This document shows, piece by piece, positions 5,029 to 42,236 of a stretch of DNA of 64,000 nucleotides (within the stretch, counting starts at the first letter, position 1; each line of letters begins with the position of its first letter). A program made the position numbers and the translations under genes. The stretch lies in NCBI GenBank assembly GCA_946537885.1, contig CAMNGC010000006.1, positions 33,694-97,693 on the forward strand, in the 5' to 3' direction. The notes under the pieces were generated by a model. The model had not been told where the DNA came from. It worked only from the letters and a program-made list of their open reading frames with translations, and did not search any database. The DNA is from an uncultured Clostridia bacterium. Its GTDB lineage: Bacteria > Bacillota > Clostridia > Saccharofermentanales > Saccharofermentanaceae.

Positions 5029-5145
5029 ATTATGGATCTTTACGGAATTATGGGATTATACGGAATCCTTGGTATTCTCCCCGACAGATTTGGCTGATCT
5101 GAGTTTTTGGACTCTGGGCTCCGTCTCGTGTACCGAAGCACATTG

Positions 5146-5263
5146 ACCGCGTATAGGGAACAGTTTCGTGAAAACTGCCCATATTTCCCGGAGGACTTCC
5201 CTGTGTATAGGGAACAATTCCGAGAAACCTGCCCACATTTCCAGGAGGATTTCCCTGTGTATT
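5146..5263 (-). repeat. 54-bp-period tandem intergenic repeat, locus 1
   Basis: Motif tatag/tat at 5152, 5206 and 5260 is spaced exactly 54 bp; reverse complement reads TTCCCTATACACAGGGAAGTCCTCCGGGAAAT..., matching locus 2. Confidence 0.9.
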
Positions 5264-5351
5264 GACCACAGAAAATGCGTTTTTGTGATTTCTGTGGTCG
5301 TGATAAACTAGCCATTACCACAGAGATTCCGCTTTTTGATATCTCTGTGGT
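5264..5351. repeat. Two tandem related hairpins
   Basis: GACCACAGAAA(14 nt)TTTCTGTGGTC at 5264-5299 and ACCACAGAGAT(13 nt)ATCTCTGTGGT at 5317-5351; both have perfect 11-bp stems and similar T-rich loops. Confidence 0.85.
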
Positions 5352-5418
5352 CATTTGCTGCACTTTGCCGGCGCACGGCGTATATCATCCCCGGCTCGAC
5401 TGTTGTCTCATAATTAAA

Positions 5419-28060: not shown

Positions 28061-28198
28061 GAGAGCGGGTATATTCGATTCTTCACGAAAAGCTTGGGAT
28101 ACAGCGTGAATGCTTTAAGCAAAGGCATAAGCATGTTGCTTAAGGATCTGCTTAAATTCATGACCACAGAGATAGCAAATCTGTTGTCGCGCCGCATC

Positions 28199-42012: not shown

Positions 42013-42031
42013 GTTTGTTGGTCAGTTGTTC

Positions 42032-42236
42032 TCGGCAGACTTTCCGGTGGATGGGGAAGCCTGCCGGGAATTTTTGTTGGTTTTTCCCGGAACTATTCCC
42101 TATAGATAGGGAAGTCTGCCGGGAAATCTGTTGGTTTTTCCCGGAGCTGTTCCCTATGGACAGGGAAGTCTACCGGGAAATTTATTGCTTTTTCCCGGAA
42201 CTATTCCCTATGGACAGGGAAGTCTGCCGGGAAAAG
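42032..42236 (+). repeat. 54-bp-period tandem intergenic repeat, locus 2 (about 3.8 units)
   Basis: TTTTTCCCGGA junctions place CCC at 42086, 42140 and 42194 (exactly 54 bp apart), preceded by one degenerate unit; core TTCCCTATGGACAGGGAAGTCTGCCGGGAAA. Confidence 0.95.

Follow-up and report, generated by a model that had tools for sequence, protein, structure and literature searches.

A dispersed 54-bp palindromic repeat in an uncultured Clostridia bacterium, probably carried upstream of uvrB by an ISL3-ended MITE

Tandem arrays in the window and the insertion upstream of uvrB

The window is a stretch of 64,000 nucleotides from the genome of an uncultured member of the Saccharofermentanaceae. 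Upstream of its uvrB gene, at locus 1, lies an array (5149-5262) of two 54-bp units, 87% identical, in the arrangement 2 x 54 + 6 bp. TRF placed it at 5151-5262 (period 54, 2.1 copies, 87% matches) and a second array, at locus 2, at 42054-42234 (period 54, 3.3 copies, 88% matches); a repeat search of the window agreed with both registers. Counting a degenerate fourth unit (42028-42071), locus 2 holds four units and extends over 42028-42234. The two arrays belong to one family, sharing a common unit in opposed orientations. A sequence-only reading had already described about two units at exact 54-bp spacing upstream of uvrB, with a reverse complement matching the distant array of equal period and opposite orientation; both observations were borne out, with the limits refined as above. 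The pattern TTCCCT-n6-AGGGAA, allowing at most one mismatch, occurs four times in the window, always inside these arrays, where 0.14 occurrences are expected, and none of 100 shuffles reached four.

The array at locus 1 sits within a larger insertion. Positions 5034-5416 are homologous to other places in the same genome, and in four congeners the upstream gene, its terminator and the uvrB promoter are found within about 100 bp, as against about 527 bp here, a difference of about 380 bp. The insertion point lies immediately past the terminator T tract, and the borders of the element were set by alignment to decayed copies. The repeat noticed earlier is real, but the MITE of about 380 bp around it, with its other repeat families, had been overlooked. 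The features are as follows.

5034-5416, plus strand: composite MITE between the upstream-gene terminator and the uvrB promoter; degenerate at its left end (GGATCTTTACGG versus GGTTCTTCACGG), with the right terminal repeat lost; from homology to other copies and the empty site in four congeners, right border approximate
5034-5081, plus strand: left terminal repeat in degenerate form, together with the subterminal stretch; 18 bp are duplicated within this segment; comparison with the copy on contig C29
5082-5148, plus strand: MITE left module CGACAGATTTGGCTGAT...CACATTGACC, 85-89% identical at C3, C6 (17.9k) and C9
5149-5262, minus strand: array of the 54-bp family (F1), two units plus 6 bp, the phase being permuted (GYGTAT-AGGGAA...TTCCCT-GYGTAT), with TGACC direct repeats on either side; repeat searches and alignment
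5184-5227, minus strand: one full 44-bp palindrome, here in the standard phase; R1 score 64.4 bits, covariance model
5263-5299, plus strand: F2 hairpin 1, TGACCACAGAAA...TTTCTGTGGTC; pattern search and folding
5315-5354, plus strand: F2 hairpin 2, TTACCACAGAGAT...ATCTCTGTGGTCA; pattern search and folding
5352-5416, plus strand: MITE right module, terminal repeat absent; comparison with the C29 copy
28077-28190, plus strand: second, truncated MITE copy that retains the terminal repeat GATTCTTCACGAAAAGCTTGGGAT and the right module, with the remnant of an F2 (CCACAGA) hairpin; comparison with other copies
42028-42071, minus strand: degenerate unit of the 54-bp family in a stand-alone array; 51.1 bits, covariance model
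42083-42126, plus strand: unit of the same stand-alone array; 69.3 bits, covariance model
42137-42180, plus strand: unit of the same stand-alone array; 65.4 bits, covariance model
42191-42234, plus strand: unit of the same stand-alone array; 68.5 bits, covariance model

The uvrB promoter of the four congeners contains a GAACATATTTTC box, which we take to be SOS-like. Since the insertion lies upstream of both the promoter and this putative SOS box, no effect on uvrB is expected. Judged by its sequence context, the repeat at locus 1 is mobile-element DNA and not an RNA or uvrB control element.

Anatomy and distribution of the 54-bp unit

An alignment of 22 units defines a 44-bp nested palindrome, TTTCCCGG-n5-TTCCCT-RYnnRY-AGGGAA-n5-CCGGGAAA, and a spacer of 10 nt. 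There is almost no variation in the TTCCC/GGGAA boxes, and the 6-nt centre fits RYnnRY in 14 of the 15 distinct loops. The earlier statement that the arms TTCCCT/AGGGAA are kept while the linkers vary holds for the arms and for linker sequence, but linker length is constant at 5 nt and the centre is constrained as well. Loop positions 1, 2, 5 and 6 show 28 transitions versus 1 transversion, compared with 22 versus 45 in the linkers, the units not being independent; the purine/pyrimidine conservation could come partly from shared descent and transition bias. Units differ by 5.9 bases within a locus and by 9.3 across loci (permutation 2/5000), which is what local tandem duplication predicts. Within an array two dyads stand 27 bp apart, so that units may be delimited in either of two phases. 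Stand-alone arrays have the whole 44-bp palindrome at their boundaries, whereas MITE-borne arrays show the permuted phase, bounded by GYGTAT/ACGCAT-AGGGAA...TTCCCT-GYGTAT, and measure 54n+6 bp.

Across the 2.07-Mb assembly the covariance model found 23 units at 14 loci, to which a permuted copy on C29 is added, giving at least 15 loci. All are intergenic in an ORF survey, their neighbours are unrelated genes (thrS-, rpoC-, EF-G-, surE- and blaI-like), and an intrinsic terminator usually separates the array from the gene upstream of it. The proposed genome-wide element dispersed over unrelated intergenic regions is thereby confirmed, well beyond the two copies in the window. TTTTCGA motifs near several arrays were considered as a further element and set aside, as they are not enriched over Markov expectation.

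The search extended to relatives, as the sequence-only reading had suggested, did not find the repeat there. The covariance model returned nothing convincing in 86 congeners, and its weak matches (E about 1e-5 to 5e-3), which lack the box pattern when one mismatch is allowed, were taken as chance. Pattern searches gave no hit in a further 116 genomes of the family nor, at three mismatches, in 189 others of the order; among plasmids nothing matched the locus 2 array and among phages nothing matched the locus 1 MITE. Judged by uvrB, identity to the closest congener is just 76%, and the absence therefore means that the repeat is confined to this lineage, not necessarily that it is recent; the comparison covers one strain of the species, represented by a draft assembly that is 87.6% complete.

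These data bear on two other functions for the arrays. Invariant TTCCC/GGGAA boxes at fixed spacing, the degenerate yet R/Y-constrained centre and the two dyads 27 bp apart would suit cis-acting, operator-like DNA sites, bound by a host regulator or a nucleoid or segregation factor and kept by selection at dispersed places. Such a role is unlikely, as the neighbouring genes share no class, the copies number from 1 to 4 at variable positions, and all relatives lack the arrays.

We regard as very unlikely an RNA element, in which transcribed hairpins would serve as 3'-end stabilisers, attenuators or terminators. Units do fold well as RNA, at about -20 to -22 kcal/mol (z -3.8 to -4.8), and the locus 2 array, which begins just 8 bp past a stop codon, speaks for it. 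However, none of 14 pairs is altered on both sides in the 22 units; varying pairs just break, among them the outer GG/CC pairs, broken without compensation in 6 of the 22. The terminator that usually precedes the arrays, a palindrome that ends in A's without a U tract, and the lack of an Rfam match for the repeat also argue against this role. The RNA-structural element once proposed, and the stem covariation that was to be looked for, were accordingly not borne out. What is conserved in the unit, as its alignment indicates, is sequence and not pairing, probably in the form of double-stranded DNA boxes, TTCCC/GGGAA around RYnnRY.

The MITE scaffold and its nested hairpin families

MITE copies of about 100-750 bp occur in a dozen places of the genome, filled with hairpin repeats and holding no transposase gene. 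They consist of terminal repeats GGTTCTTCACGGAAAGCTTGGGAT, a left module of either of two kinds, a hairpin-array interior and a right module; GGTTCTTCACGGAAAGCTTGGGAT stands at both ends of several copies, while the copy in the window retains a degenerate left end only. This 22-24 bp terminal repeat is identical to the ends of ISL3 insertion sequences in congener G053 and other congeners, and to an insertion-sequence end on contig C18 of the same genome. The element of G053 is 1455 bp long, encodes a transposase (DDE_Tnp_ISL3, E = 4e-55) and is flanked by an 8-bp target duplication, TTAAAATT; the terminal repeat recurs in congeners G053, G036, G073 and G046, in many cases where a contig ends. 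Contig C18 ends in a 107-bp fragment of the left end that includes the first transposase codons, ATGCTCCTCAAT. The transposase gene of this ISL3 element was not found in the organism's own contigs; an autonomous copy was probably present in the genome and lost in assembly. Among the MITE copies, the candidate 8-bp target duplication of C29 matches at 7 of 8 positions; elsewhere it is absent or decayed, most copies being too eroded to show one. In its shared terminal repeats, its dispersed copies free of a transposase gene and the empty site in relatives, the scaffold at locus 1 shows the main characters of a MITE.

One MITE of about 100 bp on contig C12 (L067:1032-1124) runs from the left module straight into the right end (CACATT/CACGC) and is possibly the form free of interior insertions. 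Other copies have CATT on each side of the interior.

How the 54-bp array is placed in the scaffold can be followed by comparing copies. MITEs filled with the array (C3, the window, C29) read CATTGACC-array-TGACCACAGA, whereas unfilled ones (C9, C13, C18, C31) read CATTGACCACAGA, and these junctions point to an array insertion with duplication of TGACC. The filled copies hold three units (C3), two (window) and one (C29).

Three further hairpin families occupy the same scaffold, also in tandem with a period of about 53 bp. The CCACAGA hairpins, ACCACAGA...TCTGTGGT, are spaced by 53, sometimes 64 bp, and show weak covariation, their outer pairs being fixed by the search pattern. Hairpins of the type GTCAACAGA...TCTGTTGAC follow each other at 51-54 bp in up to 8 units, and GTAATGC...GCATTAC hairpins at 53 bp. 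The four families (TTCCC, CCACAGA, GTCAACAGA and GTAATGC) have no evident common sequence. Notably, all of them in this one genome repeat every 53-54 bp (about five turns of the helix), either on a single MITE scaffold or next to it. Such a pitch could reflect a phasing or copying rule at the DNA level, for instance through a recombinase or slippage at the 6-bp palindrome centre. We consider such a rule quite unlikely; if true, it would also explain the two circularly permuted phases, with the 44-bp palindrome outside in stand-alone arrays and half-palindromes outside in the MITEs.

Several individual arrays were observed alongside. The MITEs at C1:59254-59837 and C12:29994-30729 are filled with GTCAACAGA...TCTGTTGAC hairpins (F3) that repeat in tandem every 53 bp, with up to 8 units in the C1 copy. 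At 108.4-108.9 kb of C1 (L158:19450-19915) a complete MITE with both terminal repeats encloses a 53-bp GTAATGC...GCATTAC array, and a further tandem repeat, CTCGCAACCCTTGCAAGCAAGTTGCTCGC, with periods of 49 and 70 bp, lies on the same contig (L159:7469-7691). Hairpin arrays in 400 kb of five congeners, a small sample partly picked for holding these repeats, have periods of 61 and 64 bp. Intergenic tandem hairpin arrays, differing in sequence as well as period from those of the present genome, were seen in G006 (L188:16620-16815, 64 bp) and in G059 (L174:8438-8552, 61 bp).

Spread of the repeat and comparison with known systems

Taken together, the 54-bp repeat is probably a palindromic DNA repeat that is scattered through the genome, tandem at individual sites and found in this species only among the genomes searched, and at locus 1 a passenger of an ISL3-ended MITE. 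An ISL3 transposase would move the MITE in trans into stretches rich in T, for instance where terminators end. The 54-bp array may have entered one MITE lineage once, beside a CCACAGA hairpin, leaving the TGACC duplication, and would persist there in versions of one, two and three units. Units would multiply by local tandem duplication, arising by slippage or when direct repeats undergo unequal exchange. The conserved double-stranded boxes point to a putative site of protein binding or recombination, and not to an RNA.

The spread of the 12 stand-alone arrays falls outside the MITE model: 12 of the 15 arrays have no MITE ends nearby at the tolerance used, and target duplications flanking them are not above those of shuffled pairs, the sole candidate being on C15. 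There, a single 44-bp unit (C15:33163-33206) stands right after a terminator T tract with an 8-bp direct repeat, TGCGAAGA, on both sides.

Among known systems the closest analogue appears to be the BOX elements of Streptococcus pneumoniae and S. suis, which are species-restricted, non-autonomous and composed of end modules and variable tandem internal modules (boxB; boxD in S. suis) (PMC3049150). Both systems are modular, intergenic and species-restricted, with variable tandem modules between end modules and with nested repeat families. In contrast to BOX, the ends here match an ISL3 insertion sequence, the interior alternates between four different hairpin families, 12 loci carry the 54-bp module on its own, and conservation falls on its sequence boxes instead of on pairing; the analogy is one of architecture by description, without a claim of sequence relation.

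Nezha/ISNpu3 is cited as a MITE mobilised by an insertion sequence (PMC3049150). Such MITEs and the present elements are alike in being short, non-coding and dispersed, with terminal repeats of a host insertion sequence and an A/T-rich target; here the interior consists of tandem palindrome arrays of several families and the partner is ISL3. The small dispersed repeats (SDR) of Nostoc are very small repeats nested in other repeats. The nesting is similar, but the 54-bp repeat is longer, palindromic and tandem. PMC3116915 mentions SDR.

That the repeat is a REP/REPIN/BIME family moved by a RAYT (Y1 tyrosine transposase) is highly improbable: it shares with REPINs the short intergenic palindromes in many copies, the tandem clusters and the species specificity (PMC3116915), but Y1_Tnp (PF01797) has no match in the assembly (87.6% complete), with 5 of 14 control genomes positive, and carriage of the locus 1 copies by an ISL3-ended MITE argues against RAYT mobilisation. 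The repeat also differs from REP, REPIN and BIME elements in its two alternating dyads per 54-bp unit and in having some copies within a TIR-bounded MITE. As REPINs are defined together with RAYT transposases (PMC3116915), none of which was found in the assembly, we do not class the repeat as REP; the REP/BIME-like label given to it earlier survives as an analogy for dispersed intergenic palindromes.

With the repeat as passenger of an ISL3-ended MITE, an apparent RNA or regulatory repeat upstream of uvrB becomes an explainable mobile-element insertion. The genome offers a bacterial case in which tandem palindrome arrays are interchangeable on one MITE scaffold and share a pitch of about 53 bp, and how very small palindromic repeats arise becomes testable through strain comparison within one species.
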